From: Candidatus Didemnitutus sp.
GTDB taxonomy: Bacteria; Verrucomicrobiota; Verrucomicrobiia; Opitutales; Opitutaceae
Length of the DNA stretch: 64,000 nucleotides
Assembly (NCBI GenBank): GCA_019634575.1
Contig: JAHCAY010000001.1
Location: 434,001-498,000 of the forward strand
Reading direction: 5' to 3'
In this document: positions 6,437-51,713 of the stretch, one piece after another
Layout: every line of letters begins with the position of its first letter
Numbering within the stretch: position 1 is the first letter of the stretch
Notes under the pieces: model-generated
Told to the model about the DNA's origin: nothing
What the model saw: only the letters and a program-made list of their open reading frames with translations
The model's database searches: none
Made by a program: the position numbers and the translations under genes

Positions 6437-7324
6437 TCAGGGCGCGCCCCAGACGACACCGATGCTCAGCAGCACGCCGAAGGCCGCGAGGAATTTCGCC
6501 GTATCCGCGAGCACCGCGATCTGTTCGTGCGGATCGCCCGAACTCCCGAGCCGATGCGTCAACCGCATCGCCCAGGGCGCGAGCACCAATGGCAGCAGCA
6601 CCGGCCAGCGCCAGCCGACCCACATCAACGCTGGCGCGCTCAACAAGGCCGCGAGCGCCGACAGCGCGTATTGCCAGAACGCGAACTTCCGGCCGAAACG
6701 CACGACCAGCGTGCGCTTGCCCGCCTTCGCGTCGGTTTCGACGTCGCGATAATTGTTCGCGACGAGAATGTTCGCCGCCAGCAAACCGACCGCTCCAGCC
6801 GCCAGCATCACCGGCGCCGTGATCGTGTGGGCCTGCACGTAGAACGTCGCACCGACCGCCACGAGACCGAAGAAGATGAACACGAACAGATCGCCGAGTC
6901 CGTTGTAGCCGAGCGGATACGGCCCGCCCGTATAGGCGATCGCGCAGACGATGCTCACGATGCCGATCGGCAAAAGAATCCAGCCGCCTTCCGCCACGAG
7001 CAGCAGCCCGACGGCGAACGCCGCCGCCAGCACGATCGTGGTCGCGAGCAGCATCGTGCGCGGCGACACCAGACCCGCCGCCACGGCGCGGCGCGGACCG
7101 ACGCGCTCGTGCGTGTCGGCGCCTTGCACGAAATCGAAGTAGTCGTTCGCGAAGTTCGTGCCGATCTGCACGAGGAGCGAAAACACGAGGCAGATCGCTG
7201 CCCGCCCGACGCTCGCCGTGTGCGCGGCCGCAGCGAACGCCGTGCCGACGAGCACCGGAATCACGGCCGCCGGCAGGGTTTTCGGGCGCGCCGCTTCGAG
7301 CCAGACTTTCGCGGCCACGGCCAT
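6437..7324 (-). CDS. menA: 1,4-dihydroxy-2-naphthoate polyprenyltransferase (MenA)
   Basis: A membrane prenyltransferase of the UbiA superfamily that attaches the polyprenyl tail to 1,4-dihydroxy-2-naphthoate, giving demethylmenaquinone. About nine hydrophobic segments are visible. The first prenyl-diphosphate/Mg2+ motif is NFANDYFDFVQGAD (Asp-rich, near residue 60); the second is the NNYRDVETDAKAGKRT region. RPKTLPAAVIPVLVGTA at the N-terminus is typical of MenA. ATG 7324 is chosen because it lies one base after the stop of the upstream gene; an earlier ATG would overlap that gene. menD and menF lie about 9 kb away, so the men pathway is split here. Confidence 0.93.
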   Translation of the reverse strand: MAVAAKVWLEAARPKTLPAAVIPVLVGTAFAAAAHTASVGRAAICLVFSLLVQIGTNFANDYFDFVQGADTHERVGPRRAVAAGLVSPRTMLLATTIVLAAAFAVGLLLVAEGGWILLPIGIVSIVCAIAYTGGPYPLGYNGLGDLFVFIFFGLVAVGATFYVQAHTITAPVMLAAGAVGLLAANILVANNYRDVETDAKAGKRTLVVRFGRKFAFWQYALSALAALLSAPALMWVGWRWPVLLPLVLAPWAMRLTHRLGSSGDPHEQIAVLADTAKFLAAFGVLLSIGVVWGAP

Positions 7325-7325
7325 C

Positions 7326-7967
7326 TCACCAAGTGAGGTTGCGCCGGCGCGTGAAAACAACCATCGGCCGCTTGACCATCAGGCTCCAAATCACCGGCAC
7401 GAGCAGGATGATCGTATTGAAGGCGGCGAGCCGTTGATCGTCGCCGAGGAAGAAATTGAACGGCAGCAAAGTCAGCGCATACGCGGCCACGAACATCCGC
7501 GGCGTCGGAATCACCGGGTTCACCGCACACACCAGCAGGAAGGCCAGCACCCCGGGATAGCCGTTGCCCATGCCGCTGCTCAGACCGGCGTAGAAGAAAA
7601 TGGCGGCGAAAAACGTGATGCGCGCGCGCCAGCGCAGCGACTGGATCAGCACCCCGACAAACGTGACCGCGGCGCAAATCGCGAAGACCAGCATCGCCTG
7701 CTCCGGCTCGGCCTCGAAACTGAATCGCCACAGTGCCACCGCGCCCATGAAGCCGCGCAGCAAATCGAGGTAGTTGCGGTGATTCCGCAGTTCCCGTCCC
7801 AAGCGGACCGACTTGTCGTCCGGATCGTTCGCGCCGTCCTGCGCGAAGCGCTCCATCGTCTCGCGCTCCTTGCGTTTGTTGCGCCAGAGCTTGCCCAGGC
7901 GCATCCATTGACGAGGAAACCAGAGCGTCAGCAGAGCAAGAAGGAGATACGGCCAGTGGATGGTCAT
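7326..7967 (-). CDS. Multi-pass membrane protein of unknown function
   Basis: 213 residues with an N-terminal membrane anchor (HWPYLLLALLTLWF), a basic cytoplasmic stretch with KRKERETMERF, then about five hydrophobic segments (FMGAVALW, AMLVFAICAAVTFVGVLI, ITFFAAIFFYAGL, VLAFLLVCAV, YALTLLPFNFFL). No known motif is visible. The start ATG at 7967 follows the TPR-like gene by 49 bases, and the stop precedes menA by one base, so it is co-transcribed with menA. A role in quinone or lipid metabolism is only a guess from position. Confidence 0.8.
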   Translation of the reverse strand: MTIHWPYLLLALLTLWFPRQWMRLGKLWRNKRKERETMERFAQDGANDPDDKSVRLGRELRNHRNYLDLLRGFMGAVALWRFSFEAEPEQAMLVFAICAAVTFVGVLIQSLRWRARITFFAAIFFYAGLSSGMGNGYPGVLAFLLVCAVNPVIPTPRMFVAAYALTLLPFNFFLGDDQRLAAFNTIILLVPVIWSLMVKRPMVVFTRRRNLTW

Positions 7968-8016
7968 GCGGCGTGGTCGAACCGGATGGAGCCTCCGCGC
8001 TGTCGCGTTGTCAAAC

Positions 8017-8673
8017 TCACTCCCGCTGAAGTTCGCGCTCCCACTCGGCGCAGCGCGCGAGGACGAGCTCGCGCTGCGCCTCCGGCTCGTCCGCCGGCAA
8101 ACGCCCGCCCCACGCGCGCAGCCATTCCACGGCCTCGCGCCGCTGTCCGCTTCGCCACAGCAGCTCGCCGCAAATCCGGCCGGCATGCCACGGCGCTCCG
8201 ACCATCTCGGCGGCGCGGCGGTAATAGGCCGCGGCTTCGCGGCTGTCGCGGCGCGCGTAGAGCGCGATGTTGCCCGCCTCGATCCACAACTCCGGCGAAC
8301 GCCCCGGCGCGTGCTCCAGCACGGCCAGCGCCTCGCCCGCGAGTTCGGCGCGCCACGCCGCCTTCAGCGCCGACGGTGCCGTCGGCTGCTCTCGCTCCCG
8401 CCACTCGGGAAAATCGAAGGCGCGCATCCGCGCGGCGTTCACCCGGAAATAATCCGTCATCGGAGCCAGCGCCACCGCGAGCGTCGTCAGCTCGCGCGTC
8501 CGCGCCTCGTCGCGTTTTTCCCAGGCGAGATTCGCCTTCAACCAGCACCAATCCGCGGCGGCCGGCCACGCGATCGCCACCGGCTCATGCGCATCGCGCC
8601 ACGCTCCCGTCGCCGCCCCGAAAACCGCGAGCGCCGCGAACGCCAGCAGCGGAACGTGCCGTTCAGAGATCAC
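8017..8673 (-). CDS. TPR-like membrane-anchored protein
   Basis: Starting from GTG 8673 it encodes 218 residues: one N-terminal hydrophobic segment (LLAFAALAVFGAATGAW), then helical pairs resembling tetratricopeptide repeats, e.g. ELWIEAGNIALYARRDSREAAAYYRRAAEM and ELLWRSGQRREAVEWLRAWG. TPR proteins act as protein-interaction scaffolds. The start overlaps the permease stop by 11 bases, so it is coupled to the ABC transporter and may be an accessory subunit. A longer ATG start at 8718 would overlap the permease by 56 bases and is less likely. Confidence 0.75.
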   Translation of the reverse strand: MISERHVPLLAFAALAVFGAATGAWRDAHEPVAIAWPAAADWCWLKANLAWEKRDEARTRELTTLAVALAPMTDYFRVNAARMRAFDFPEWREREQPTAPSALKAAWRAELAGEALAVLEHAPGRSPELWIEAGNIALYARRDSREAAAYYRRAAEMVGAPWHAGRICGELLWRSGQRREAVEWLRAWGGRLPADEPEAQRELVLARCAEWERELQRE

Positions 8674-9406
8674 GGCGCGAAAAACACCAGCCGGCCAAAA
8701 AAATGTAGAGCGCGGCATACGCGGCCAGATATCCCAACGCGGAAGTCAGCGCGGCGGATTCGCCGATCGCGAGGTCAGGCACCAGCCAGCCCAACAACAA
8801 CCAAGCTCCCTTCGCCGCGCCGGTCGCTTTCGCGGCCGCGAACGCGATCACCGGCGCCAACCGTCCCGCCAGCGCAGCGGCCAGCGTCAGAACCGCCGCG
8901 AGCAGCGGAGTCCGACTGATCGTCGCGAAAAACAGGCTCATCGCCGCCGTCACGAGCAGCGGCGCCAATTCCATCGCCAACGCACGCAGCGCCGTCCCCG
9001 TCGCCGCCGCATGACCGAGCAATGAAAAGAGTCCCGCACTCGCCCCACCGCACAGCACCGCGAGCCAACCGAGGACGATCGCGACCGCGATCGCCTGGGC
9101 GGCAATCACCGCCCCGCGTGCACCGCCATGCATCAGCACGATCGATGTCACGCGCGACTCGAGGCCAGAGAAAAACAGCGCCGGTCCCGCCAGCGCCGCC
9201 AGCACGCTCCCACTGAGCGCGAAGACCGCGGTGCCGTAATCGATCAGGAAAACCTGCTCTGCGGAGCCGAAATGAAATTCGCGCAACACGGCGCCGCCGA
9301 CCATGAACGCCACCGCAGCCGCGCCCAGTCCCCACGCGACGCGCAAGCGCAGCGCCAGCGCGAGCCAGAACTGGACCAAAACCCAGAAGCGACGCCCCGC
9401 CCTCAT
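8663..9406 (-). CDS. ABC-2 type transporter permease
   Basis: 247 residues with six or seven hydrophobic segments and little else: N-terminal LGAAAVAFMVGGAV, then VFALSGSVLAALAGPALFFSGLESR, AIAVAIVLGWLAVL, LAPLLVTAAMSLFFATISRTPLLAAVL and the C-terminal YLAAYAALYIFLAGWCFSRRDL. The topology, the conserved-looking FFSGLESR loop and a terminal basic RRDL fit the membrane subunit of ABC-2 exporters. ATGA overlap with the upstream ATPase gene makes the pairing secure. The substrate is unknown. Confidence 0.82.
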   Translation of the reverse strand: MRAGRRFWVLVQFWLALALRLRVAWGLGAAAVAFMVGGAVLREFHFGSAEQVFLIDYGTAVFALSGSVLAALAGPALFFSGLESRVTSIVLMHGGARGAVIAAQAIAVAIVLGWLAVLCGGASAGLFSLLGHAAATGTALRALAMELAPLLVTAAMSLFFATISRTPLLAAVLTLAAALAGRLAPVIAFAAAKATGAAKGAWLLLGWLVPDLAIGESAALTSALGYLAAYAALYIFLAGWCFSRRDL

Positions 9407-10140
9407 GCTTCGCTCGCCTCCAGTTGGATTTGCTCCAGTCCGCCGCGCGCCGCCACCGCCGCACGGTCTCCCTCAAACACGAGCCGTCCGCGCTCCAACA
9501 CGACGAATCGGTCGCACAGCTCCTCCAAGTGCGGCGCGTCGTGCGAGCTCAGCACGACCGTGCGCCCGGCCGCCCGCTGCGCGACGAGCAGGGATCGCAC
9601 CTCGACTTGCGCCCGCACATCCAAGCCCGACGTCGGCTCGTCGAGCAGCAGCACCGCCGGATCGCGCAGCAGCGCCTGCGCAAGTCCGAGCCGCTGGCGC
9701 TGTCCCTTGGAAAGTTGCGCCGCCGCGCGCTCGGCCAGCGCGGACAGTCCCACTTGCGCGAGCGCACGTGCCGCCGCCTCTCTCGCCTCGCGCCGACTGC
9801 AACCGCCGATCATTGCCAAGCTCGCGAGGAACTCCGACGCCGCGACGAAGTCCGGCAAAATCGTTTCCTCCGGCAAATAGGCGACACGTCCCTCGCGCGC
9901 GGCCACGGCGGGCTTGCGCCCATCGACCTCGCAACTGCCGCTCGTCGCGTGGGCCAGACCCGCGCAAATCTTCAGCGTCGTGCTCTTGCCCGAGCCGTTC
10001 GCGCCGACCAGCGCACAGATCGTGCCGCGCGCCACGTGCAGCGTCACGCTGTCGAGCGCCCGCTGTGTCCGGCCGCGCCAATCCCCGGCGTAGCTTTTGG
10101 TCAGCCGCTCGATCCGCACGGCGGGCGCGAGGGAGGACAT
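9403..10140 (-). CDS. ABC transporter ATP-binding protein
   Basis: A 245-residue ABC ATPase. Walker A is GANGSGKST (near residue 41), the signature is LSKGQRQRLGLAQALL, and Walker B is VLLLDEPTSGLDVRAQ. The switch histidine lies in LSSHD. PEETILPDF after the Q-loop region is typical of the drug/gliding-type ABC-2 exporters (CcmA family) rather than importers. ATG 10140 is two bases after the acylphosphatase stop. It drives the adjacent permease, probably for export or membrane-lipid handling; the substrate is not deducible. Confidence 0.93.
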   Translation of the reverse strand: MSSLAPAVRIERLTKSYAGDWRGRTQRALDSVTLHVARGTICALVGANGSGKSTTLKICAGLAHATSGSCEVDGRKPAVAAREGRVAYLPEETILPDFVAASEFLASLAMIGGCSRREAREAAARALAQVGLSALAERAAAQLSKGQRQRLGLAQALLRDPAVLLLDEPTSGLDVRAQVEVRSLLVAQRAAGRTVVLSSHDAPHLEELCDRFVVLERGRLVFEGDRAAVAARGGLEQIQLEASEA

Positions 10141-10142
10141 CG

Positions 10143-10418
10143 TCAGCGAATCGTGAAGCCGGAAAACTGCGCGACGCGCCGCCCCGCCGTCCGCTCCGTC
10201 TTCCGGATGTAACCCGCGAGATGCTCCTGCACGGCGCCGACGAACGCGGCCACCTCCGCCTTTTCCCCCTCGGCCTCGAGCTGCACGCGACCGTCCGGGA
10301 GATTGCGCACGAAGCCGGAGACCTCGAATCCCTTGGCCACCTGCAAGGTCTGATAACGGAAACCCACGCCCTGCACGTGACCGGAAAAGAAGACGCTCTC
10401 GTGATGCACCTCGGCCAT
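10143..10418 (-). CDS. acyP: Acylphosphatase
   Basis: A small (91-residue) ferredoxin-like-fold enzyme that hydrolyses acyl phosphates. The family signature GHVQGVGFRYQTLQVA holds the phosphate loop and catalytic Arg (FR, about residue 20). The catalytic Asn is in GFVRNLPDGRVQLEAEG. ATG 10418 gives the normal length for the family; an upstream ATG at 10454 would add 12 atypical residues. First gene of a six-gene minus-strand run ending at menA. Confidence 0.95.
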   Translation of the reverse strand: MAEVHHESVFFSGHVQGVGFRYQTLQVAKGFEVSGFVRNLPDGRVQLEAEGEKAEVAAFVGAVQEHLAGYIRKTERTAGRRVAQFSGFTIR

Positions 10419-10547
10419 TCGCGCGATGACACCGCGCCGGCGAATTCCCGGCAAATCGAAACCGGCTTAGAACGAGAATTTTAATTGCGCGAGCAAGGTC
10501 GCTGCGCACACTCCCGCCAGCGTCCTTCCAGACGCTCCTTTTTTTCA

Positions 10548-11219
10548 ATGACCAATCAAGATTCCGACGGGATGTTCGAGAACGACTGGGAAGAACGCCG
10601 GGAGCTCTCGTGGACCGAAGCCGATTGGGAACAGTATCTGGCCGAGCACGAAACCGCGGTGCGCGACTACCTGAAACACTACGAGCAACTGCCCGCCGCC
10701 ACGGATCGCATCGATGAAGTCGCCCGCCGCATGGGCTGGGACATGCAGCCGGAGGAAGCGACCGAGGGCGAGATCGACGCCGCCAACGCCACCGAAAACG
10801 ACGAACCGGCATTCGACGAGGATTTCGATCTCTACACCGTCCACCGCAACCCGGTGCACATCGCCACCAAGGCCATCTACGTGAGCCTCGTCGCCAACTG
10901 GGAACGTGTCGCCTCCCACCCCGAGCGCATCCACCCCGCGGTCAGCCTGGCGGTGGCCGGCTCGCTCTACCGCGGCCGCGAGCACGCACTGCAGGCGGTC
11001 CAATCGCTCGACATGGGCGACTACGCGCTCGCCATCTGCTTCTTCAAACGCGCCCTCCGCGAACTCAACGACACGCTCGCCCGCCTCGGCGTCACGACCG
11101 ACTCCGACGGCGGCCTGCTGCAGCGTTACCGCGAATACGCCATGCCGCGCCTGTTCGATCTCCGCGAGATCTGGCTGCGGGTCATGGCCGAGTGCCGCCA
11201 CGCCGACAAGGGCGAGTAA
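10548..11219 (+). CDS. Acidic helical protein of unknown function
   Basis: 223 residues, soluble, with a strongly acidic N-terminal half (about 40% Asp/Glu in the stretch around residues 60-90) and a helical C-terminal half starting at HIATKAIYVSLVANWERV. The C-terminal half resembles a bundle or TPR-like pair, with ALAICFFKRALRELNDTLARLG near residues 160-181. I do not recognise the family. ATG 10548 is favoured over an upstream in-frame TTG or GTG because the residues before it are low-quality sequence. It is monocistronic: a divergent gene lies upstream and a strong terminator downstream. Confidence 0.8.
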   Translation: MTNQDSDGMFENDWEERRELSWTEADWEQYLAEHETAVRDYLKHYEQLPAATDRIDEVARRMGWDMQPEEATEGEIDAANATENDEPAFDEDFDLYTVHRNPVHIATKAIYVSLVANWERVASHPERIHPAVSLAVAGSLYRGREHALQAVQSLDMGDYALAICFFKRALRELNDTLARLGVTTDSDGGLLQRYREYAMPRLFDLREIWLRVMAECRHADKGE

Positions 11220-21536: not shown

Positions 21537-22772
21537 ATGAGTCCCCTCGCCCGCGCGCTGCTGCTTTCAATCACCCTCGTCGGAGTGTTCCTCGTCGCGG
21601 CGTTTTCGTTGCAGGCGTGGTGGCTGCGAGAAGAAGCTGCTGCGAGAAGTGAGGCAGGTGATCGACTGGGCACCGCATTGATTTCAGTGCTGAGCCTATC
21701 GCCACGTCCGCCGGAACAATGGGATGAAGTCTATCGCAAGAATCTCAGCGCACTGGTGCAGGCAGACGTCCAACTGCACCAGCGCCCGATCGGACCGCCC
21801 GTCGGGCGTGATGTGCCTTTCTACTCCACGAGCCTCGGTGCCTATCCAGGCTGGCACGTGAGTGCGACTGGCAGTCCGCCGGCATTTGAGAAACTCCGCC
21901 GCTTTCACCGTTGGATTCTGGCGACCACGATCCTGCTGGCCTTGCTCCTCGGCTCGATCCCGCTCGCGCTGGCTGTGCTGAACTCGCGACAGTCACCCGA
22001 GCGCGACACCCGCGCGCCGTGGCGCCGCGACGCGGCGGGCCTCGAGCAATTCGCCCGTCTCACCGTCGAGCGCGGCACGGCTCTGGAAAAGGAGCACGAC
22101 GCCCGCCGGCGCGCCGAGGAGGACCTGCAAGTCAGCCGCACGCTGCTCGACCGCTCGCTCGAGGAGCGCATCAAACTCGGCCGCGAACTCCACGACAACA
22201 TGAGCCAGACGCTCTACGCCGTGAGTCTCGCCCTCGAAAGCGTGCGCAAGAAAATGACCGCGGCCCCCGCCATCGAAGAGCGGCTCGATCAGTGCGTCGT
22301 CGAGTTGCGCCGGCTGAATCAGGAAGTCCGCGCCTACATCCGCGAGCTCGAGCCGGACAATCTCCGCCGCGAGTCTTTCCCGATCGCGCTCGCCTCCACG
22401 CTCAAAGGCATCGTGCCCGACCATGTCTCGGTCGAGCAGCGCTTTGATCCCGCGGCGCTCGAACTGATCCCCGCCGAGCACGCCTCTGAACTCGTCAACA
22501 TCGTCCGCGAAGCCGTGAGCAACAGCGTGCGCCACGGCCGCGCTCAGCGCATCACCCTCCGCGCCGCGCACGACGCCGGAGCGCTCGCCCTCGCAATCGC
22601 CGATGACGGCGCCGGCTTCGCCGCCAGCCAAACCGGCTCCGGCGGCCACGGCCTCGCCAACATGCGCGCGCGCGCCGCCGCGCTCGGCGGCACGTTGCAC
22701 GTCGAGTCCGCTCCCGGAAAAGGCACTCGCGTCCTCCTCACGTTGCCCCTCGCCTCCCCTCCCTCCGCATGA
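21537..22772 (+). CDS. NarX-type sensor histidine kinase (HisKA_3)
   Basis: 411 residues. Membrane helices at about 8-27 and 126-148 enclose a periplasmic region of about 95 residues. A short coiled linker leads to the HisKA_3 helix with the phosphoacceptor H219 in GRELHDNMSQTLYAVSLALE. The HATPase domain has REAVSNSVRHG (N-box), DDGAGF (G1) and GGHGLANMRARAAALGG (G2). Its stop overlaps the start of the response regulator by ATGA, so the two form a classic two-component pair. Confidence 0.95.
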   Translation: MSPLARALLLSITLVGVFLVAAFSLQAWWLREEAAARSEAGDRLGTALISVLSLSPRPPEQWDEVYRKNLSALVQADVQLHQRPIGPPVGRDVPFYSTSLGAYPGWHVSATGSPPAFEKLRRFHRWILATTILLALLLGSIPLALAVLNSRQSPERDTRAPWRRDAAGLEQFARLTVERGTALEKEHDARRRAEEDLQVSRTLLDRSLEERIKLGRELHDNMSQTLYAVSLALESVRKKMTAAPAIEERLDQCVVELRRLNQEVRAYIRELEPDNLRRESFPIALASTLKGIVPDHVSVEQRFDPAALELIPAEHASELVNIVREAVSNSVRHGRAQRITLRAAHDAGALALAIADDGAGFAASQTGSGGHGLANMRARAAALGGTLHVESAPGKGTRVLLTLPLASPPSA

Positions 22773-23434
22773 ACGCCGCCCCTGTCCGCCGCATCCGCGT
22801 CCTGCTCGTCGACGACAGCCCGTTGATTCGCCTCGGCCTGCGCGCCGCGCTCGAAGACCGTGCCGACATCGAGATCGTGGGCGAGGAAGGCACGGCCACC
22901 GCCGGGGTCGCCGCCGCCGAGCGGCTGAAGCCCGACCTCGTGCTGCTCGACTTGCGCCTGCCCGACAAACCGGGCTTCGCCGCCTGTCGCGAGATTTCCG
23001 ACCGCCTGCCGACCGTGCGCGTGCTCATCCTTACCTCCGCGACCGATGAGCGAAACGTCCAGCAAGCCATCGCGGCGGGCGCCTACGGTTACCTGCTCAA
23101 GGACAACGACAGCGCCACGCTCGCGGCCGCAATTCTCCAAGTCGCCTCCGGTCGCTCCGTCCTCGACCCGACCCTCGCGGGCCAAGTCGTGAGCCTCGTG
23201 CGCCGCGGCCCCGAGCTCAGCGCCGCCGACAAGATCAAGTTGCTCTCGTTCCAGGAGCAGCGAGTCGTGGCCCTCCTCACCGAAGGCAAAACCAACAAGG
23301 AAATCGGCGACGCCCTCAATCTCACGGAGAAGACCGTGAAGAACTACCTCGCAACGATTTTCGACAAGCTCGGCATCCAGCGCCGCGCGCAAGCCGCCGC
23401 GCTTTTTACCGAAGCGCAGCGCGAGCAGCTCTGA
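22769..23434 (+). CDS. NarL/LuxR-type response regulator
   Basis: 221 residues. The receiver domain has the acidic pair D15/D16, the phosphorylated Asp D61 (VLLDLRLPD), a Thr in ILTSA and the Lys in YLLKDND. After a linker, a LuxR-type helix-turn-helix spans about 155-210, with GKTNKEIGDALNLTEKTVKNYLATIFDKLGIQRR. The first helix of that domain starts at LLSFQEQRVVALL in place of the usual LTPRE. Coupled to the upstream HisKA_3 kinase; probably a DNA-binding transcription regulator of unknown targets. Confidence 0.95.
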   Translation: MNAAPVRRIRVLLVDDSPLIRLGLRAALEDRADIEIVGEEGTATAGVAAAERLKPDLVLLDLRLPDKPGFAACREISDRLPTVRVLILTSATDERNVQQAIAAGAYGYLLKDNDSATLAAAILQVASGRSVLDPTLAGQVVSLVRRGPELSAADKIKLLSFQEQRVVALLTEGKTNKEIGDALNLTEKTVKNYLATIFDKLGIQRRAQAAALFTEAQREQL

Positions 23435-23560: not shown

Positions 23561-24199
23561 ATGCCAACAAAGCCTTTGTCCGTCGCCCGCCACCGCAGCC
23601 GCCGCGGCCTGACGCTGGTTGAGACGATGTTCGCCATGACTCTCATGGCCACCACGCTTCTCGGCTTTCTCGGGGCGTTCATCCAATCGCGTCGCGTCAC
23701 CGAGTCCAGCGTGCTGCACGCCGCCGCGACGAGTTTGGTCTACGGCATCGTCGAACAAATCAAAACCTTCGACTACACGACCCTCGTTCCCAGCACCGCC
23801 ACTGATGCCGATCAGGCCACCTATGATGCCTTCCCTGGCTCCGGCAAAGCCGCGCCCTACATCCGGGTTCGCCTCAATCAGGACCAAGTCACCTGGCTTC
23901 AGTGCAAGACCACCGGCGGTGCACCCACGACTCGGCCGGCGGACACGGCCACGGCGACGAGCCTCGACGTCCCCGACAACATCATCGGCCCGCTCGCACT
24001 TTCAAGCGTCAGCGGCACCTCGTCGCAACCGCTCACCCTCCACCTCTGGATGTGGATCGACGAGATCCCCGACGTCACGCGCGACGTCAGCGACGTGAAG
24101 AAAATCACCCTCGTCTACTCCTACACCTACGTCGACGGCGCGCGCACGCGCACCGCGATCGACCGCGAAGTGTTCCTCCGCACGCGCTTCGACCAATGA
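23561..24199 (+). CDS. Type IV pilin-like protein, PilV/GspI class
   Basis: 212 residues. It has a prepilin signal: a short basic leader to RRG (residue 16), then LTLVETMFAMTLMATTLLGFL, with Glu at +5 of the mature protein. Prepilin peptidase should cut after Gly16 and the hydrophobic helix should enter a pilus or pseudopilus. The remainder is a beta-rich, Thr-rich globular domain. First of three ATGA-coupled genes, and the order matches the I-J-K minor pseudopilin set. In Verrucomicrobiota similar multi-gene sets are called Verru_Chthon cassettes; membership is not verified. Confidence 0.85.
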   Translation: MPTKPLSVARHRSRRGLTLVETMFAMTLMATTLLGFLGAFIQSRRVTESSVLHAAATSLVYGIVEQIKTFDYTTLVPSTATDADQATYDAFPGSGKAAPYIRVRLNQDQVTWLQCKTTGGAPTTRPADTATATSLDVPDNIIGPLALSSVSGTSSQPLTLHLWMWIDEIPDVTRDVSDVKKITLVYSYTYVDGARTRTAIDREVFLRTRFDQ

Positions 24200-24966
24200 A
24201 AACTTCCCCGTCTCCCGTTTCCAGCCGCGCGTCCCGCTCGCCCTCTCGCTCCACACGCGGCTTCACCCTCGTCGAAGCGCTCATCTCGATGACCATCGTC
24301 GGCATGGCGATGGGCGGCGCCATGAGCATCTTCGTCATGGGACTGAAAGTCATGTATCGCGACACCGAGCGCCTCGCGACCAATGCTTCGCTCCGCTACT
24401 TCATCGCCCAGATGTCGAAGGAGACGCTCGACTCCACCGAGTTCTACGTCTTCCCGAATTACCAGGCGCTCGACGGCAGCGTGAACCTCGCGACGGACGT
24501 CTCGACCCTCCAATCCGACGCTTACGGCACACAGCTCGCGTATGGCGATTGCGTCGTCCTCGTGTCGCGCGTCGACACCGACGACAACACCTCAAACGTC
24601 CGCCAATTCCGCATCTATTACCGCGTCGCCGCCGACACGAGCGTGCGCGCGCCGATCCGTTATTACGAGAGTCAGGACTACGGCGCCACCGGCACCCCCA
24701 GTCCAATCACGACGCTGCTCAACACCGTCAACCTCCGCACCACACCCGCGATCACCCGCTCGCGTCAGATCGTCGGCAGCACGCGCGGTCGCCTCCAAGC
24801 CGGCTCCAATCCCGCCTACTACTACCCGATCTTCGCGACCGAGACCGACGCCGACACGCCCACGAACTACAGCGTCTCCGTGAACGTCGAGGTCATCAAC
24901 GGCACCGCGACCAACAACCTGCTCTCCAGCTCCAGCTTCAACTACACGATCTCCCCGCGGAAATGA
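24196..24966 (+). CDS. Type IV pilin-like protein, PilW/GspJ class
   Basis: 256 residues. Prepilin leader of 22 residues ends RSTRG, cut before FTLVEALISMTIVGMAMGGAMSIF (Glu at +5). The mature domain carries RYFIAQMSKETLDSTEFYVF in the conserved alpha1 extension, typical of the PilW/GspJ group, and a Ser/Thr-rich C-terminus. ATG 24196 overlaps the previous stop and its own stop overlaps the next start. Probably a tip or minor pseudopilin working with its two neighbours. Confidence 0.85.
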   Translation: MKTSPSPVSSRASRSPSRSTRGFTLVEALISMTIVGMAMGGAMSIFVMGLKVMYRDTERLATNASLRYFIAQMSKETLDSTEFYVFPNYQALDGSVNLATDVSTLQSDAYGTQLAYGDCVVLVSRVDTDDNTSNVRQFRIYYRVAADTSVRAPIRYYESQDYGATGTPSPITTLLNTVNLRTTPAITRSRQIVGSTRGRLQAGSNPAYYYPIFATETDADTPTNYSVSVNVEVINGTATNNLLSSSSFNYTISPRK

Positions 24967-27900
24967 TCCCCATGCACACGCCCATGCCTTCGCCCTCCGC
25001 CGCCGCTCTCCGCGCTCGCCGCGGCTCCGCGCTCATCGTCGTCATTTTCTTCATCTTCATGTTGGCGCTGCTCACCGGCAGCGTCCTGAGATACACCGTC
25101 AGCGAACGCCGTTCCAACGAGCGCCAGCGCCTCGTCCTTCGCGCCCGCAACATGGCCGAGAACGTCGCCCTCTACGGCTCGGAACAGATCACCACGAAGC
25201 TCTATAAAATCCGCAACCTCAGCACGCGCCGCTTCTCCGATATCTATCTGCCGCCTGATAGCGTGCTCACCACGGACTTCTCCGCACCCGCCGATTCGGA
25301 GACCTACGCCGGCCTCACCAGCACCGTCGATCTCCACCCGGTCACCGACACGAGCGATCCGAACTTCGGCCTCCAAGTCGCCAGCGGCAACGTCGACATC
25401 ATCGCCAAGTCCGCCATGTCGCACACCGCCGTCGGCGGCGTCACTGCCTACGCGCGCCAGCAACTTTCCGTCACCGAGATTCCGCTTTTCCAGTTCGCCA
25501 TCTTCTACAACAAGGACCTCGAGGTTTCGCCTGGCGCGAACATGACGATCAGCGGCCCCGTCCACTCGAACGGCAATTTCATCTCCCGCAGCCAATCCGG
25601 TTTCGCCAACACCATCCGCTTCACCGACCGCGTCACCGCCAAAGGCGGCTTCTTCGCCAACACCGGCTACAAGGGCACGATCTACAACGAAAGTGATACC
25701 GCCGACACCGGCCCCGGCGGCTCCGGTGCGCTCTATTTCCAGAACCCCGCCGGCTCCGCGACCAACATCTACAGCGGCAGCATCTGGCGCGATCACTTCT
25801 ACTCGTCCAACAGCGGCAGCAGCAGCTCCACGCCCACCGCCTCGCAACTCGCCAACTTCAAATCCTTCGCCACCTCGAGCTACGGCGGCAATTTCCGCAC
25901 CAGCGTCCACGGCGTCACCGAGCTCGTCCTCCCCGGTATCGACAACACCGCCACCGACAACGGCGGCCGCTACATCGTCGAACCCGCCGCGACCTCCGAC
26001 ACCGCCGGCATGGTGCAGAACAAATTTTCCCGCCGCGCCGGCCTCTACATCATCGTCAATCCCGACGACGAAGCCCGCACCGGCACACTCCCGGACGCCA
26101 CCACCGTCTCCATGCGCGCCCGCTCCTATCGTTGCTGGCTCAACACCGTCAACACCGACGGCTCGCACACCCTCACCGAAGTTGTCCTCCCCGGCCAGCC
26201 CTCCTACGGCGCCAACAACGCCACCGTCAACCTTCTCCCCAACGCCTACCGCACCGACACTTCCGTCGGCTCCAACCAAGTTCTCCGCATCCCCAAGGCC
26301 CGCCCCGCCACCATCGGTGCTCCGGATCCGAGCAACCCCGTCGACCTCGCCGATACCGGCTACGCCGACAGCTCCGCGCCCACTTACTCCAGCAACACCT
26401 ACACTTTCCAGGATGCGTTCTTCTACGACCTGCGGCGCGCCACCAACAGCAACGGCCACCCGTTCAGCCGCAGCACGAATCCTTTCGCCCCGCGCCCGAT
26501 CTCCAAAATCGATTTCGACATGACCCGCTTCAAGATGGCAGTCGATCGCACACTCAACGGCGCGACCACCAGCACCGTCTTCAACCCCGCGCGCCCCAAC
26601 AGCACCAACTGGAGCACTTCCATCTTCAACAGCGCCGCCAGCAGCGCTGCACTCGGCCTCGGCACCGGCAGCTTGTTCAACAATTTTTCCTCCACCAATT
26701 CCGTCGACGTCGTCCAGCGCTCGCAATCCACCGCCTACGCGCCCAGCTCGATCCTCATCGGCAGCACCAAGCAAACCGGCGTCAGCGGCACGCCAGCCGC
26801 ATATTCCGGTCGCTTCGTCATCGCGACCACGACGAGCACCCCGAGTTCCGCCGGCGGTCTGGAAGGTGCTGCCTGGACCAACGTCGAGTCGTCCAGCACC
26901 GACGAATCGGCGCACTCTTTCACGCCCCCCGCCGGCATTACTGGCATCCGCGTCAGCCACTACCTTGCCGGCGGCACCACCGTCCTCCTCGACCAGCAGA
27001 TCATTCCCGTCACGATCGACCGCGCCGGCGCCGGCGCGAATATCTTCTCGCTCTCCAACGACCGCGTCATCGTCCCCTCCACGAGCAACACCGGCGGCTT
27101 CCTCTTCACCAACGCCTACACCGACCTCCACGTCTACGTCGACGGCGTGGAGGACACGCCAAACTGGACCTTCACGTTCACCGTCACCGGCAGCTCCGTC
27201 GGCGGATTCGGCAGCACCAGTTCCAGCGTCCTCAGCAAAGGCGTCTACGGCAACGGCGACGGCTTCAATCGTTTCTGGCTCACCGGCATCTCCACCACCG
27301 CCGGCACGACCACCGGCACCGTCGTCTTCACCGCCGCCAAAGGCACCACGACGCTCACCCGCACTTTCACCTGGGTAAAGCAAAGCAGCATCGCCGGTCT
27401 CTCGCCGAGCAACGACCAGAGCGCCTACTGGCTCTCCGCCAGCGACACCGTCACCGCCGACCCCTTCAAGATTTACTACGCCGACAGCACTCCCACTGCC
27501 GTGCCCGGTTCCGCCCTTTTCGTCGCGGGCAGCAACACACCTTGGTTCGACGGCATCACGGTCTACGTCCATTCGGTCGACGCCGAGAGCACCGCCGGCA
27601 AAGTCCAAACCGCCGGCGTGCCCTCACGACTCGACTCCGGCGTCCGCCTCATCAACGGCCGCGGCCCCGTCGCCTCCATCACCACCAGCGGCTACACCGG
27701 CCTCAGTTTCACCACCAACGACGCTCTCTACATTGTAGGCCACTTCAACGCTGATGGCACCATCAACTCCAACAGCAACTCCAACACCAACCCCGGCGGC
27801 TACAGCGGACGCTATCCCGAATCTTCCAGCGAATACCTCACCGCCGTCATGGGCGACGCCATCACGATCCTCTCTCAACCCGAATTTACCCAGAGCGGCA

Positions 27901-28511
27901 GCGGCAACGCCGCGACGCCCTACGTCTACACGCAGACCTCCGGCTGGTGTGACGCGCTAAGCGGCAACACGCGCTCCGACCAAACCAGCAGCGCGCCCTA
28001 TTCGACCTCCTGGCAGACTTCCAATCCCAGTTCGAGCAACTCAATGGACGGCACCAATCAAAGCGTCGCGCTCCCGCCCACCCCCTTCCAAGGCACCAGC
28101 ACCAGCGGCGCCAGCACGACAACCCGCGACTACAAGTTCGAAGCCAGCGAAACCGAAGTCTCTGCCTGCCTCCTCACCGGCATCGTCGAGACCACCACGC
28201 ACCAGCACAGCGGTGGCGTCCACAACTACCCGCGCTTGCTCGAGCAATGGAGCTCCGGCGGCACGCAAATCGGCCTCTACATCCGCGGCTCGATGGTCGC
28301 GATGTTCGCCAGCGAAGTCGCCACCGAGCCGTGGAGTATCCGCATCTACACCGGCGCCGGCCGCTTCTGGGGCCTGCACGAAAGCCTCCGCGACGAGCAC
28401 CACGACGTCCCCCTCGAGCCCATCCTCCTCAACGCCCAGCGCCTCCACTACACCGAGCTCACGTCCAGCGAATACGAATCCCTGAAAACGACGATCACGG
28501 GCCTGCACTGA
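24963..28511 (+). CDS. Giant PilX/GspK-like pseudopilin with large extracellular region
   Basis: 1182 residues, several times longer than PilX or GspK. A basic leader (LRARRG, ending residue 21) precedes GSALIVVIFFIFMLALLTGSVL; the mature helix lacks the +5 Glu, as in PilX/GspK. Residues of about 130-250 include FQFAIFYNKDLEVSPGANMT and ISGPVHSNGNFISRS. The rest is a Ser/Thr/Gly/Asn-rich beta structure of more than 900 residues with few charged residues; Ig-like strands appear near residues 700-840. No protease or adhesin motif was identified. It is third in a coupled operon and may form a surface tip or adhesin presented on a pseudopilus. An internal alternative ATG at 24972 is possible. Confidence 0.85.
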   Translation: MIPMHTPMPSPSAAALRARRGSALIVVIFFIFMLALLTGSVLRYTVSERRSNERQRLVLRARNMAENVALYGSEQITTKLYKIRNLSTRRFSDIYLPPDSVLTTDFSAPADSETYAGLTSTVDLHPVTDTSDPNFGLQVASGNVDIIAKSAMSHTAVGGVTAYARQQLSVTEIPLFQFAIFYNKDLEVSPGANMTISGPVHSNGNFISRSQSGFANTIRFTDRVTAKGGFFANTGYKGTIYNESDTADTGPGGSGALYFQNPAGSATNIYSGSIWRDHFYSSNSGSSSSTPTASQLANFKSFATSSYGGNFRTSVHGVTELVLPGIDNTATDNGGRYIVEPAATSDTAGMVQNKFSRRAGLYIIVNPDDEARTGTLPDATTVSMRARSYRCWLNTVNTDGSHTLTEVVLPGQPSYGANNATVNLLPNAYRTDTSVGSNQVLRIPKARPATIGAPDPSNPVDLADTGYADSSAPTYSSNTYTFQDAFFYDLRRATNSNGHPFSRSTNPFAPRPISKIDFDMTRFKMAVDRTLNGATTSTVFNPARPNSTNWSTSIFNSAASSAALGLGTGSLFNNFSSTNSVDVVQRSQSTAYAPSSILIGSTKQTGVSGTPAAYSGRFVIATTTSTPSSAGGLEGAAWTNVESSSTDESAHSFTPPAGITGIRVSHYLAGGTTVLLDQQIIPVTIDRAGAGANIFSLSNDRVIVPSTSNTGGFLFTNAYTDLHVYVDGVEDTPNWTFTFTVTGSSVGGFGSTSSSVLSKGVYGNGDGFNRFWLTGISTTAGTTTGTVVFTAAKGTTTLTRTFTWVKQSSIAGLSPSNDQSAYWLSASDTVTADPFKIYYADSTPTAVPGSALFVAGSNTPWFDGITVYVHSVDAESTAGKVQTAGVPSRLDSGVRLINGRGPVASITTSGYTGLSFTTNDALYIVGHFNADGTINSNSNSNTNPGGYSGRYPESSSEYLTAVMGDAITILSQPEFTQSGSGNAATPYVYTQTSGWCDALSGNTRSDQTSSAPYSTSWQTSNPSSSNSMDGTNQSVALPPTPFQGTSTSGASTTTRDYKFEASETEVSACLLTGIVETTTHQHSGGVHNYPRLLEQWSSGGTQIGLYIRGSMVAMFASEVATEPWSIRIYTGAGRFWGLHESLRDEHHDVPLEPILLNAQRLHYTELTSSEYESLKTTITGLH

Positions 28512-37704: not shown

Positions 37705-38121
37705 ATGAAAGCCCGCAAGACGAAGGCCGCGATCGCCGACTACCTCCACGATAACCACGCGCTGAAAGACCGCGTGGAGGAAGGGTTGCCGGTCGTCGAG
37801 ATCGTGCAGTTCGGCAAGCAGGCGGGCTTCACCAACGACGAACTCGCGCGCCTCATCCAAATCCCGCCGCGCACCTACGCCCGCCGTGTCGCCGAGAAGG
37901 CACGTCTCAAGGTCCACGAAGGCGAGCGCGCGGCGCGGCTGATGCGCCTCTTCGATCGCGCCCGGGAGATTTTCGGCACCGACGAGAACACCCGCAGCTG
38001 GTTCAACGCCAAGCTGCTCGCGCTCGGCGGCAAGACGCCGCTCGACTACGCGCAGACCGAACCCGGCGCGCGCGAGGTGGAAAATGTCCTCGGGCGCATC
38101 GAGCACGGCGTGTTCTCGTGA
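37705..38121 (+). CDS. Xre/MbcA/ParS-type antitoxin
   Basis: 138 residues. An Xre-like helix-turn-helix spans about 31-60 (FTNDELARLIQIPPRTYARR). The C-terminal DUF2384 toxin-binding domain follows (LFDRAREIFGTDENTRSWFNAKLLALGGKTPLDYAQTEPGAREVENVLGRIEHGVFS), which is the classical partner domain of RES toxins. The stop overlaps the toxin's GTG start, giving tight stoichiometric coupling. It most likely represses its own promoter through the repeats at 37629-37662, with the toxin as co-regulator. Confidence 0.93.
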   Translation: MKARKTKAAIADYLHDNHALKDRVEEGLPVVEIVQFGKQAGFTNDELARLIQIPPRTYARRVAEKARLKVHEGERAARLMRLFDRAREIFGTDENTRSWFNAKLLALGGKTPLDYAQTEPGAREVENVLGRIEHGVFS

Positions 38122-38582
38122 GTTCGCTCGTCGTCTGGCGCCTCTGCGCCGCGAAATACGCCGCCACCGCCTTCTCCGGCGAAGGCGCGGAACTCTACGG
38201 CGGCCGCTGGTCGCCGCCCGGCTTGCGCGTGGCTTACTGCGCGGAATCCCGCGCGCTCGCGATCGTCGAAGTGCTCGCCAATGCCGACGAGCCCGACCGA
38301 CTGCTCCACCTCAAATGGAGCTTCGTCTCGGCCACGCTGCCCGAAAGCACCGTCGAGAAGCCGGCGCGCTTTCCGACGAATTGGCGGCAGTTCCCCCACC
38401 CGCCCGAAACGCAGGAAGTCGGCGCGGCCTGGCTGAAGTCCGGCACACACCTCGCGTTGCGCGTGCCGAGTGCGGTCGTGCCGGGCGAGTTCAACTACCT
38501 GGTCAATCCCGCACACCCGGCATTCGCGAAGCTCGTGTTCACGAAGCCGGAGCCGTTCGCCTTCGACCCGCGCTTGCTCTGA
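38118..38582 (+). CDS. RES-domain toxin
   Basis: 154 residues from GTG 38118. RES toxins (MbcT, ParT and relatives) degrade or transfer from NAD+ in an ADP-ribosyltransferase-like fold. Seen here: GGRWSPPGLRVAYCAES with R30, ALAIVEVL with E51, and VPSAVVPGEFNYLVNP with S118 and N130. These match the Arg, Glu and Ser that name the domain. Neutralised by the upstream antitoxin. All three key residues are present, so it is probably active. Confidence 0.93.
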   Translation: MSSLVVWRLCAAKYAATAFSGEGAELYGGRWSPPGLRVAYCAESRALAIVEVLANADEPDRLLHLKWSFVSATLPESTVEKPARFPTNWRQFPHPPETQEVGAAWLKSGTHLALRVPSAVVPGEFNYLVNPAHPAFAKLVFTKPEPFAFDPRLL

Positions 38583-41606: not shown

Positions 41607-44600
41607 TCAGTTGCGCGGTCGCGAGAATTTTTCCACCGCGCTCGCGAGGTCGTGCTTGCGCACCGGCTTGGATAGGAATCCCGCCATGCCGAGCGATTCG
41701 CAACGTGTCCGGTCCTCGACGCTGCTGTTGGCCGTCAGCGCCACGATCGGAGGAGTCCGCGACCCGTCCCGCCGCCGAATCGCCGCGGTCGCCTCGTAGC
41801 CATCCCGCACCGGCATGCGACAATCCATGAAGATGAGATCGTAGCGCCGCTCGGCGGAGCGCGCGATCGCCTCGTCGCCGTTGACCGCCACGTCGACCAC
41901 GCAACCGAGCGCCTCGAGCATGGATTTCGCGATGTAACGGTTCACCTCGTCGTCTTCGACCAGCAGGATGGTGCGCGGCGCGAGCTTCGCCGGCATCGCA
42001 TCCCCTGGCGCGGATGGCTGCGGTGCCGGGCGGCGCAGCCGGTTGAGTTCCTCGACCAAATATTCGGGGTGCAACATCGGTTTGCGCACCAGCCCGGCAG
42101 GCGCGAGCTCCGCGGCGTCCTCGAGCTCGTAGCCCCACGGCGCAGCGAGGATCACGGGGACATTGGCTGCGAGCGTCTGGCGCAGCTCCCGCAGCGCGGA
42201 GCGCTCGAGCACCGCGACCGAGATGTCGACCAACAAGGCCGTGAACGCGCCGCTCCGCAGGCGCTCGCGCGCTTCGGCCACGCTGCCCGCCGCCACGACC
42301 TCCACCCCTGTCCGCGCGCCGAGCGCCACGCTTGCCTCGGCGGCAGCCGGCAGATCATCGATCGCGAGCACGCGCCATCCACGCGGCGGCATCACCACCG
42401 CGGGTAGTTCCACCGGCATCTCGATCGCAAAGGCGAACGTCGACCCGCGGCCCTGCTCGCTGACGACCTCGATCACCCCGTCCATGAGCCCGACGAGGTG
42501 CTTGCAGATGGCGAGTCCGAGCCCCGTGCCCCCGTAACGACGCGTCGACGAGGTATCCTGTTGGGTAAATTTGTCGAACAACCGCTCCCGCGCTTCCGGC
42601 GCGATGCCGATGCCCGTGTCCGTGACGGAAAACCGGATTCGCTCCGCGCCGGCTGCCGCACCGGGCTCGCGGGTCACTCGCACCGCGATGTGCCCGCGCT
42701 CGCTGAACTTGATCGCATTGGAAACGAGATTGAGCAGCACCTGCCGCAAACGCCCCGCGTCGCCCACGACCATCGCCGGCAGGTCCGGCGCCAGCACCAA
42801 GGTCAATTCGAGCTCCTTTTCGAGCGCTTTGGCGTGCAACGTTTCGACGGCATCGATCACCGGCTGGCGCGGCTCGAACGACTCCCGCGCGAGCGTCACG
42901 TGCCCCGCCTCGATCTTGGAGAAATCCAGCACGTCGTTCAGCAGCGTCAGCAAGCCGCCCGCGCTCACCCGCAACGCGTCGAGGAATTCCCGCTGCGTGG
43001 CGTCGAGCGCGGTGTCGGCGAGCAAATCGGCCGAGCCGACGATGCCGTTCAGCGGCGTGCGGATCTCGTGGCTGACGGTGGCAAGAAAATCGCTCTTCGC
43101 CTTGCTGGCGGCGGCGGCGGCCTCCTTCTCCCGCCGTTCGTGCTCGGCGCGCGCCTGCGCCTCGGCGACGAGGCGCTCGTGCTCCAGTCGCTCGCGCTGG
43201 CGACGCAGCCGCAAACTCTGCGCGGTCCACGCTCCGGCGCCCACCAGCGTCGCGAGCAGAATAACGCCCCCGTAGCGGAACCAGAGCGTCTCCCAAAAAT
43301 GCGGTGCCAGCTCCAGCACCGGGATCTCTGCAGCGGGACCGCGCCGCCCATCTCGACCGACCGCGCGCACGGCGAAACGGTAGCTCCCCGGCGCGAGTTC
43401 GAAGAGATCCACGCGACGATTCGGCCCGGCGTCGCGCCACTCCTTGCGTCCGCCATCGAGCGAATACTCGAAGCGCAGCGTTTCCGCATCAGTGAGATTG
43501 ACGGCGGAGAAGCTCACCGACACCCGGCGCGTGCCAGCCGGCAGTTCCACCCGCTCCATCGGCCCCGCCGGCCGCGGGACGCCATCGATTTCCAAGCCCG
43601 TGAGCAAAGTCGGCGCCACGGGCACCACCTCGAAGCGTTGCCGTGGGTCGAGGAACGTCACGCCGCGCATCGTCGCGATGACGAAACGTCCATCGCTCAC
43701 TCGCCGCCAGAGCGGCGAAACGCCGTCGCGCAGAGCGAAAGGCAATCCGTCAGTCTGATCGATGAGGACGAAGTCCAACGCGGGCGGCCCGCCGGCGAGC
43801 CAGCGCTCCACCGACTGGTGCGTGATCCGCAGCAATCCGCGCTCGGTGCCGGCCCAGATGTTGCCGTCGTCGTCGTGGAAAATCAGCTGCGCGATCCCCG
43901 GCGGCAGGCCCGATGCCGCGGTGAGCCGCCGCCAGACGCCGCTCACGCGCACGGCCAGCCCGCCGTCTTCCCACGCCACCCACAAGCGTCCGGCGGCGTC
44001 GCAATGCACCGCCTCGACACCCGTGGCGCGATCCGCGACGGCCTCGTGGCGCACTTGATCCGCCTTGAACGCAAACAAGCCCGCCGAGCGACTCGCCGCC
44101 CAGATCGTCCCATCCAAATCCTCCGCCAGCGCGTGGAACCGCGTGGCCGGGACGCCGTCCGCCGCCGTGTAGACGCGAAACCGGCCGGCGCGCTCGCTCG
44201 CGACACCGGTATTCGTCGCGAGCCAGAGCGTGCCGTCGCGCGCCGCGTGCAGACCATAGACCACTTCGTCGCCCGTCCCCGAACGTGGATGAAGTCGTGC
44301 ACCGGTGTCGCTGACCTCCAGCGCGCCCTCGCCAAACGTGCCCGCCCAAATATGTCCCTGCGCATCGCGCTCGAGCGTCATCGGCCACGAACCGGTCGGC
44401 TTGAATCGCTCGCCGAGCAGTCCGGGGGCCGGCTGAAAAACCCCGTCGCGCAGCAACACCACGCCGCCGCCGTGCGTCGCCACCAGGAACTCGTTGGGGC
44501 CGGTTTCGAGCACGCTGTTGACGACCGGCTGCTTCAGGCCCGCCTGCCGCCCGAGCGTCAGCACGCGATTCGGCCGCAAGCGGGCGAGTCCGCCGCCGTT

Positions 44601-45563
44601 CGTGCCGAGCCAGATGTTGCGCGCGTTGTCCTCGAACACCGCCTGCACGGCGTCGTTTTCCAGCCCTTCCTCCATCGTGGTGCGGAGCCACTGGCCGGCC
44701 GCCAGACGCGCGTAGGCTCCGCGCGTGGAGCTGGCGATCCAGAGCCGGCCACGCGAATCCTCCAACAACCGGATGTAGTCGGGCGGCAGAAATTCGGGCC
44801 GCGGCAAATCCTCCACCACGCCGCCGTCCTGCCAGCGCACAATCCGGCCGCGGATCGCGATCCAGACGCCGCCCCGCGCGGAACGCGCGATGCCACCCAG
44901 CTGCTCCCGCGGATCGGTGGACTGGAACACTTCCTCCCAACGGCCGTCCCGCCACCGGCAGATGCGTTGCGGCTGCGTGAGCCAGAGATTGCCTTCGCCA
45001 TCGGTCTCCAGCGCGGAGCCCTGAATCGTCCGCGGCCCGATGTCCGGCAGCGGCATATTGCGGAAGTGCTCGCCGTCCGCGCAAGCGAACGCCTTGCCGC
45101 CGAAGGTGACGAGGATCTGGCCCTTCCACTCGACCAACGAGTGCGACGGCTCCATGGGCAACCCCTGCTCCGCGCCGAACCAGCGCCACTTCCCATCCCG
45201 CAGGCAGCCCACGCCGCGATTGCCCGAGAGCCACAGGGCACCGTCGTGCGCGACCAGCAACTGCAACACCATGCCGTCGTGCAATGCCGGCACATCGGGC
45301 GGCGCGATCACCTCGAAACGCATGCCGTCGAACCGCGTCAGGTTCGAATACGAACCGATCCACAAATACCCGTCCGGCGTCTGCGCGATGCAGGTCGGCG
45401 CCACATGCGGGTATCCCGCCTCGACCGTCCACACGCGCACTTGATACTCGGCCGTCGCCGCCGTGAAAATCTCCCGCTGAGCCAGCACAGTGCTCGTCAC
45501 AAGGAAGCAGGCGGCAAGGAATGACTTGCGGGCGTGTGCGAGAGTTCGTCCTGTGAGTGTCAC
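41607..45563 (-). CDS. Beta-propeller hybrid two-component system protein
   Basis: 1318 residues from GTG 45563. Signal peptide 1-29. Periplasmic two-component propeller repeats follow with many WIGS/WLG/WAG-type strands ([31 protein letters not shown]), then a Y_Y_Y domain ([16 protein letters not shown]) and one membrane helix ([16 protein letters not shown]). The kinase has H-box [20 protein letters not shown]-box LVSNAIKFS and G2 [12 protein letters not shown]. Two receivers follow: the first keeps IDD, VDIS and RKP but has Ala in place of the usual Ser/Thr; the second is complete ([24 protein letters not shown]). No C-terminal HTH, unlike Bacteroides HTCS proteins. Confidence 0.93.
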
Positions 45564-51702: not shown

Positions 51703-51713
51703 GGTGTCCTCCG

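Follow-up and report, generated by a model that had tools for sequence, protein, structure and literature searches.

The tip (priming) complex of a type IV filament is probably the product of a three-gene operon of Candidatus Didemnitutus sp. (Opitutaceae, Verrucomicrobiota), whose third and largest protein would carry a ligand-binding arm. The operon lies in the 64,000-nucleotide stretch of DNA analysed here (the window, corresponding to C1:434001-498000 in a genome of 5.25 Mb that is 99.87 percent complete), and coordinates given below without a contig or locus name are those of the window. Gene 1 (23561..24199, plus strand) encodes a PilV/GspI-type prepilin of 212 amino acids (aa), as judged from its leader (RRRG/LTLVE, with the expected cut at the slash) and from the neighbours found in relatives. 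Gene 2 (24196..24966, plus strand) encodes a PilW/GspJ-type prepilin of 256 aa, a classification based on its leader (TRG/FTLVE), profile matches and neighbours. Gene 3 (24963..28511, plus strand) encodes a protein of 1182 aa, which profiles and predicted fold identify as a tip prepilin of the GspK/PilX class and of the HpsA/ComZ kind. A sequence-only reading of this DNA had already described three overlapping genes with prepilin-type leaders in I-J-K order, correctly in coordinates, overlaps and lengths; its interpretation missed the kinship with HpsA, the predicted resemblance to the fold of ComZ and the insert of phage-tail type, all described below.

The cassette and its conservation

ATGA overlaps couple gene 1 to gene 2 and gene 2 to gene 3, while promoter-like and terminator-like matches flanking the operon are about as frequent as chance predicts (1 against 0.5 expected and 3 against 3.9 expected, respectively). 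Both small prepilins carry glutamate at position +5 (Glu5), whereas the leader of gene 3 (RRG/SALIV) lacks it. Gene 1 matches the NCBIfam model type_IV_pilV weakly (1.3e-4, under the cut-off), and gene 2 reaches 19 bits against TIGR02532 (cut-off 16.3) and 3e-7 against PF07963.

The conservation of this arrangement was assessed in 98 loci, the window locus included, which were counted after removal of 12 recognised duplicates and in which genes were called by a simple codon-usage script, the counts being approximate. Of the 86 loci having two called upstream genes, 81 have both small pilins at most three genes upstream of the large gene (the five others being L029, L030, L037, L045 and L052); relatives of gene 1 occupy position -2 in 79 of the 98 loci and relatives of gene 2 position -1 in 82. 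The loci of the relatives carry names such as Opitutaceae, Opitutia and Opitutae. In alignment A3 (60 rows, i.e. the gene 3 protein and 59 relatives) the residue at -1 is Gly in 55 rows and Ala in five, and Glu does not occur at +5 in any of them. The leader has thus been kept over a large divergence, which, together with the conserved gene order, is more than expected by chance. Since GspK and PilX are likewise described as lacking Glu5 in PMC7541494, and all 60 rows combine Gly or Ala at -1 with the absence of Glu5, we assign gene 3 to the GspK/PilX class. Like these proteins, gene 3 comes last in an I-J-K or V-W-X set and has an extra domain on a pilin fold; unlike them, its extra domain is predicted to be solenoid-like and not alpha-helical, it is much larger, and it is located outside any type II secretion system (T2SS) or pil operon.

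Relationship of gene 3 to HpsA

The closest curated family is HpsA (NF038301) of the cyanobacterial hps locus, which the gene 3 protein matches at an E value of 6.3e-20, i.e. with significant homology. The matches are collinear: residues 162-220 correspond to profile positions 277-332, and residues 1045-1146, the best match, to positions 1318-1420. All 29 proteins of alignment A1 match HpsA as well. Because 28 of them came from loci first found by the HpsA model, the test was repeated with 36 of the 71 relatives, whose loci had been found by patterns based on gene 3 (P0003) and by tblastn; 35 of the 36 matched HpsA, five the GspK model and three ComGG. The independence of this second set is partial, since the patterns derive from A2, an alignment in which P0003 is joined by seven proteins that had originally been retrieved with HpsA. 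The gene 3 protein itself does not match the GspK model (NF037980) at E<=1, although some relatives do so near 6e-5 (two of the 29 in A1, besides the five of the repeat set), and no Pfam model, leader motif included, matches it at E<=1.

HpsA matches were found in 30 of 57 near relatives and in 30 of 194 genomes across Verrucomicrobiota, none of which exceeded the HpsA cut-off (0/57 and 0/194), and in one of 14 control genomes, that of Deinobacterium chartae. Similarly, a weak tblastn search of plasmids with the C-terminal part retrieved five records at E<=1; three were examined, from the genera Deinococcus, Thermus and Picosynechococcus, and the proteins in question, 812, 581 and 578 aa long, give HpsA matches at 1.2e-14, 2e-16 and 3.3e-21. 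Upstream of each lie genes annotated or scoring as prepilins, and in a global alignment these plasmid proteins and the gene 3 protein have motifs in common, beginning where the head begins and continuing to the C-terminus. Judged from its sequence, the gene 3 protein is therefore a distant relative of cyanobacterial HpsA, with which it also has in common that a large protein is encoded together with pseudopilins.

The cassette protein A of Verru_Chthon (TIGR02600) was tried as the family of gene 3 and rejected, as the model does not match at E<=1 (cut-off 332.3 bits) and has no match anywhere in the genome. Protein A, too, is a very large Verrucomicrobiota prepilin, but in a profile-profile comparison (hhalign) its similarity to gene 3 is confined to the N-terminal 67 residues and the remainder shows none. 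The view that gene 3 is a K-class large protein in a pseudopilin cassette thus stands, while the proposed Verru_Chthon link does not. Nor is gene 3 larger than every GspK- or PilX-like protein, as had been claimed: the 71 relatives span 653-1246 aa, and several open frames that match Verru_Chthon A at the N-terminus are also longer than 1000 aa. Paralogous cassettes, for which that reading suggested a search, were not found in the genome, where no second copy of gene 3 was detected at E<=10.

An antisense open frame of 888 codons traverses gene 3 (24942-27608, minus strand). It looks like a composition artefact, because gene 3 has a high third-position GC content.

Predicted fold of gene 3

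The AlphaFold2 model of the gene 3 protein (60 sequences, pLDDT 79.4, pTM 0.75) predicts a pilin helix, a pilin sheet and a giant head placed before the last strand. The prepilin leader (residues 1-21; 24963..25025, plus strand, as are all parts of gene 3), recognised from the sequence and the 60-row counts, would be cut past Gly21. It is followed in the model by pilin helix alpha-1 (residues 22-80; 25026..25202) and by the pilin sheet, with strands within residues 112-174 (25296..25484). The beta-solenoid-like head, delimited from the model, fold comparison and HpsA matches, has a first part at residues 180-583 (25500..26711) and a remainder at residues 828-1148 (27444..28406), which are separated by the insert (residues 584-827; 26712..27443). 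The last pilin strand and a C-terminal helix occupy residues 1154-1179 (28422..28499). As the last long strand, at residues 1154-1166, lies at the C-terminus, the head appears to be inserted ahead of it. The segment past the helix measures about 1100 residues and not about 900, as had been estimated for the extracellular portion, and contains 13 percent Ser, 13 percent Thr and 9 percent Gly.

This predicted architecture resembles that of ComZ, the competence tip pilin of Thermus thermophilus (PDB 6qvi; PMC6561018). In a VIA structure comparison ComZ ranks second for the full-length model (Z 8.2 over 358 residues, root-mean-square deviation (rmsd) 8.1, spanning residues 96-1168). Since ComZ was seen for this model in VIA but not in Foldseek, a minimal relative of 670 aa (L106, pLDDT 84.9) was folded as well. 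Here ComZ is the sole solved structure found by Foldseek at E<=0.001 (2.8e-7), and VIA places it first (Z 13.9, 333 residues, rmsd 7.5), followed by the ice-binding protein FfIBP (10.4), with the first unrelated fold at 4.8. FfIBP is also named as the nearest relative of the ComZ solenoid in the account of PMC6561018. The two models thus share with ComZ a pilin fold and a large beta-solenoid, of FfIBP-like type, inserted ahead of the last strand, and gene 3 is predicted to fold like this tip pilin. Both lack Glu5 and have adjoining partner pilin genes; gene 3 differs in its roughly twofold length, its extra insert and the lack of detected sequence similarity.

A phage-tail-like insert in the head

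The insert, which is delimited by an alignment gap and characterised by PHROGs, phage tblastn and fold matches, is predicted to consist of an FN3-like domain (about residues 584-685) followed by an Ig-like domain (about residues 689-809). Nine compared orthologues have nothing that corresponds to it, apart from a single stray aligned residue. It is present in six intact loci, always at one and the same position. It was found in five of 150 genomes of the family and in one of 288 of the phylum (the genome studied here), always in frames fitting gene 3, which for G174 was deduced from frame length. A search of the genus retrieved it from five of 13 genomes, the fifth holding a decayed copy (G011). 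In the tree the insert carriers fall in two places, and a single clade is not rejected (p-AU 0.093).

Several lines of evidence relate the insert to phage tails. The gene 3 protein matches the PHROGs tail protein phrog_8704 at 1.9e-11, and the insert alone matches a PHROGs tail protein at 4.8e-12. In tblastn, 35 of 50,697 phage records match the insert at E<=0.01, the best (8e-14) being the tail fibre of Microcystis phage MaeS, which carries the unit in tandem, as one nearly whole copy (107 bits) and two partial ones. Among 27 viral models matched at E<=0.001, in a table that leaves the matched part unspecified, nine bear the name of a tail, tail fibre or tip attachment protein, three more are Ig or FN3 proteins, and the rest have other or uninformative names. 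The FN3-like part resembles FN3 domains including that of the lambda central tail fibre (Z 6.5). In IMG/VR, a search with insert peptides gave six candidates, none of which was confirmed, and a search with an alignment of six inserts gave three weak viral loci (L179, L180, L181), two of which (L180 and L181, but not L179) were also matched by the insert profile in frames of more than 300 aa. A sequence search for solved relatives of the insert yielded none at E<=1.

The insert need not derive from phages, however. FN3- and Ig-like domains might be traded among surface proteins in general, and phages and the present lineage might both have drawn on this common pool, an alternative that we regard as serious if somewhat unlikely. 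The fold matches of the insert include the S-layer protein Sap (Z 8.8) and intimin (7.0), both for the Ig-like part, and cadherins. Among bacteria, the searches covered only the genus, family and phylum samples and the plasmids. In the plasmid control the insert matches five of 72,556 records, all from Bacillaceae, and the best match (6e-19) is stronger than that of any phage. It lies in a discoidin protein of 3034 aa amid hypothetical genes of a Cytobacillus plasmid (L183 9441-18545); among the sequence matches observed outside Opitutae it is the closest. The next plasmid match, by contrast, is flanked by a distal tail protein gene on one side and by amidase and holin genes on the other, so that this plasmid appears phage-like. 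The GC content of the insert (0.653) is similar to that of the rest of gene 3 (0.641), as a common pool would allow; it speaks against recent transfer, and any transfer would be old or well fitted. Against the common pool stand the number of phage records matched, the tail protein assignment in PHROGs and the extent of the insert, which spans a single unit of the tandemly repeated MaeS tail-fibre sequence. Moreover, within the family and phylum samples it is confined to gene 3.

A second, different insert, composed of repeats of about 80 residues, occurs near residues 444-470 in five loci (L081, L085, L086, L087, L096). Two of these were scanned, with a match to a phage major head family (1.3e-6) for L087 and only weak or sub-cut-off matches for L085. 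With two insert sites, the head apparently tolerates grafts at at least two places.

A proposed filament-tip complex and its alternatives

We propose that genes 1 and 2 would act as minor pilins of the V/I and W/J type, and gene 3 as the K/X-type pilin that caps the fibre, since its bulk could not pack inside. The same arrangement, with a steric argument for a position at the tip, is described for ComZ, which binds the neighbouring pilin PilA2 (PMC6561018). The conserved beta-solenoid-like part would form a rigid head from which the FN3+Ig insert, whether it came from phage tail fibres or is common to both, protrudes as a binding arm; the target of this arm would most likely be a carbohydrate or another surface ligand, whereby the filament gains a new target. 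Display of the large protein at a tip, as suggested in the sequence-only reading, is thus likely.

Prepilin peptidase, ATPase, platform and secretin would be supplied by clusters of type IV pilus or T2SS-like genes at other places in the genome. Indeed, the genome contains ten matches to the T2SSE ATPase family, six secretins, one match to the N-terminal domain of prepilin peptidase A24 and 24 N_methyl leaders at E<=0.01. All ten ATPase and six secretin matches lie outside the window, which bears out the earlier statements that neither is encoded nearby and that the machine must be supplied in trans. Judged by eye, PilB-, PilT- and PilC-like genes are found at C1:410-416 kb, 42-48 kb from the operon (start at 457.6 kb), and T2SS-like sets at C5:113-125 kb, in G-H-I-J-K order, and at C1:2129-2143 kb. 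PilY1, sought as a missing adhesin, had no match in 57 genomes, but none in the control genomes either.

Several points weigh against a tip complex of this kind. The proposal rests on computation, with no ligand residue identified, and the insert is modelled with low confidence (block-mean pLDDT 31-81). The ComZ score of the full-length model is rated as middling by the comparison tool itself, Foldseek returned no PDB match at E<=0.001 for this model, ComZ not being among the 50 rows listed, and neither profiles A3 and A7 nor a Thermus relative yielded a sequence link to ComZ, so that kinship, though possible, would be remote. Likewise, the HpsA score (70.5 bits) is far under the equivalog cut-off of 400 bits. 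The operon is far from every machine whose filament it might cap. In G011, a member of the genus, a decayed cassette, insert included, lies beside the same neighbour genes (L167 about 7000-10650; G011:C5) and has stops in all three translated frames, which indicates that the cassette is dispensable. Finally, the nearest characterised proteins suggest three different jobs, i.e. DNA uptake, polysaccharide secretion and adhesion.

A pseudopilus of the kind proposed for cyanobacterial Hps, serving the export of motility or capsule polysaccharide, with gene 3 as an export or capping subunit and not an adhesin, would agree with HpsA being the closest curated family (HpsA itself is listed as functionally unknown in PMC4284469). 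We consider it unlikely: besides the low HpsA score, no glycosyltransferase was recognised by eye beside the cassette among the gene calls of the window, most of which were not scanned, and the recurrent neighbours in other loci, judged in the same manner, are housekeeping genes, regulators, pilins and one unknown small gene. Improbable, too, is a DNA-uptake tip whose solenoid head binds DNA during natural transformation; the predicted ComZ-like fold and the binding of DNA, besides PilA2, reported for ComZ in PMC6561018 would fit this function, but the sequences show no detected relationship. That the three genes encode T2SS-like minor pseudopilins for one special substrate, with gene 3 as the GspK that recognises it, is very unlikely, since, despite the GspK matches of some relatives and the presence of two T2SS-like clusters, both clusters own ordered small pilins (by eye) and gene 3 lacks a GspK match.

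Implications

If a tip complex is indeed encoded, gene 3 represents a new form of a known part, the pilus tip, and not a new machine. Module grafting on pilins is presented as a general strategy in PMC8179133, and the principle is thus already known. Like the modular pilins described there, such as PilB of S. sanguinis, gene 3 would combine a pilin with a grafted module, probably for display at the tip; its leader is conserved and the insert present, although the Pfam leader motif does not match. It differs in that the pilin receiving the module is itself predicted to be a solenoid-type tip pilin, and the module an internal unit of phage-tail type. We found no paper on a ComZ-like carrier in HpsA-like proteins or on a phage-tail-type graft in a search that excluded most subscription journals.

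More broadly, we tentatively suggest that Verrucomicrobiota, cyanobacteria and Deinococcota may share, in their HpsA-like proteins, one giant tip-pilin family with a ComZ fold, and that in one lineage of Opitutae the tip was re-armed by a receptor-binding unit of a phage tail fibre, a view that could well prove wrong. If true, this would assign cyanobacterial HpsA a definite function at the tip of a filament, and a bacterium would display a phage-type binding arm on a retractable pilus. A single predicted architecture would link the DNA-uptake tip of Thermus, the unexplained HpsA and unannotated giant proteins of Verrucomicrobiota, and the question of HpsA becomes testable: is it a prepilin at a filament tip? 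Orthologues with and without the phage-tail-type arm, at the same site, offer a natural experiment.

Neighbouring genes and other features of the window

Upstream of the operon lie a histidine kinase gene (HisKA_3; 21537..22772, plus strand) and a NarL/LuxR-type response regulator gene (22769..23434, plus strand), the latter ending 126 bases before gene 1. Both are candidate regulators on account of their domain matches and of the neighbours in relatives: within five genes upstream and on the same strand, a kinase occurs in 20 and a response regulator in 28 of the 98 loci, in 75 of which four upstream genes were called. This two-component pair may regulate the operon. Directly 3' of the large gene, 26 of the 98 loci have a small gene of about 220 aa, often signal-bearing (e.g. 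L035:9284-9835); it is absent from the window, and the one copy scanned has no Pfam match.

Elsewhere in the window, a pair consisting of an Xre/MbcA/ParS antitoxin and a RES-domain toxin is located at 37705-38582, a hybrid two-component propeller regulator of 1297 residues at 41607-45500 (minus strand), and a ParA/MinD-type ATPase adjoining a 319-residue gene without a Pfam match at 50743-52607 (minus strand).

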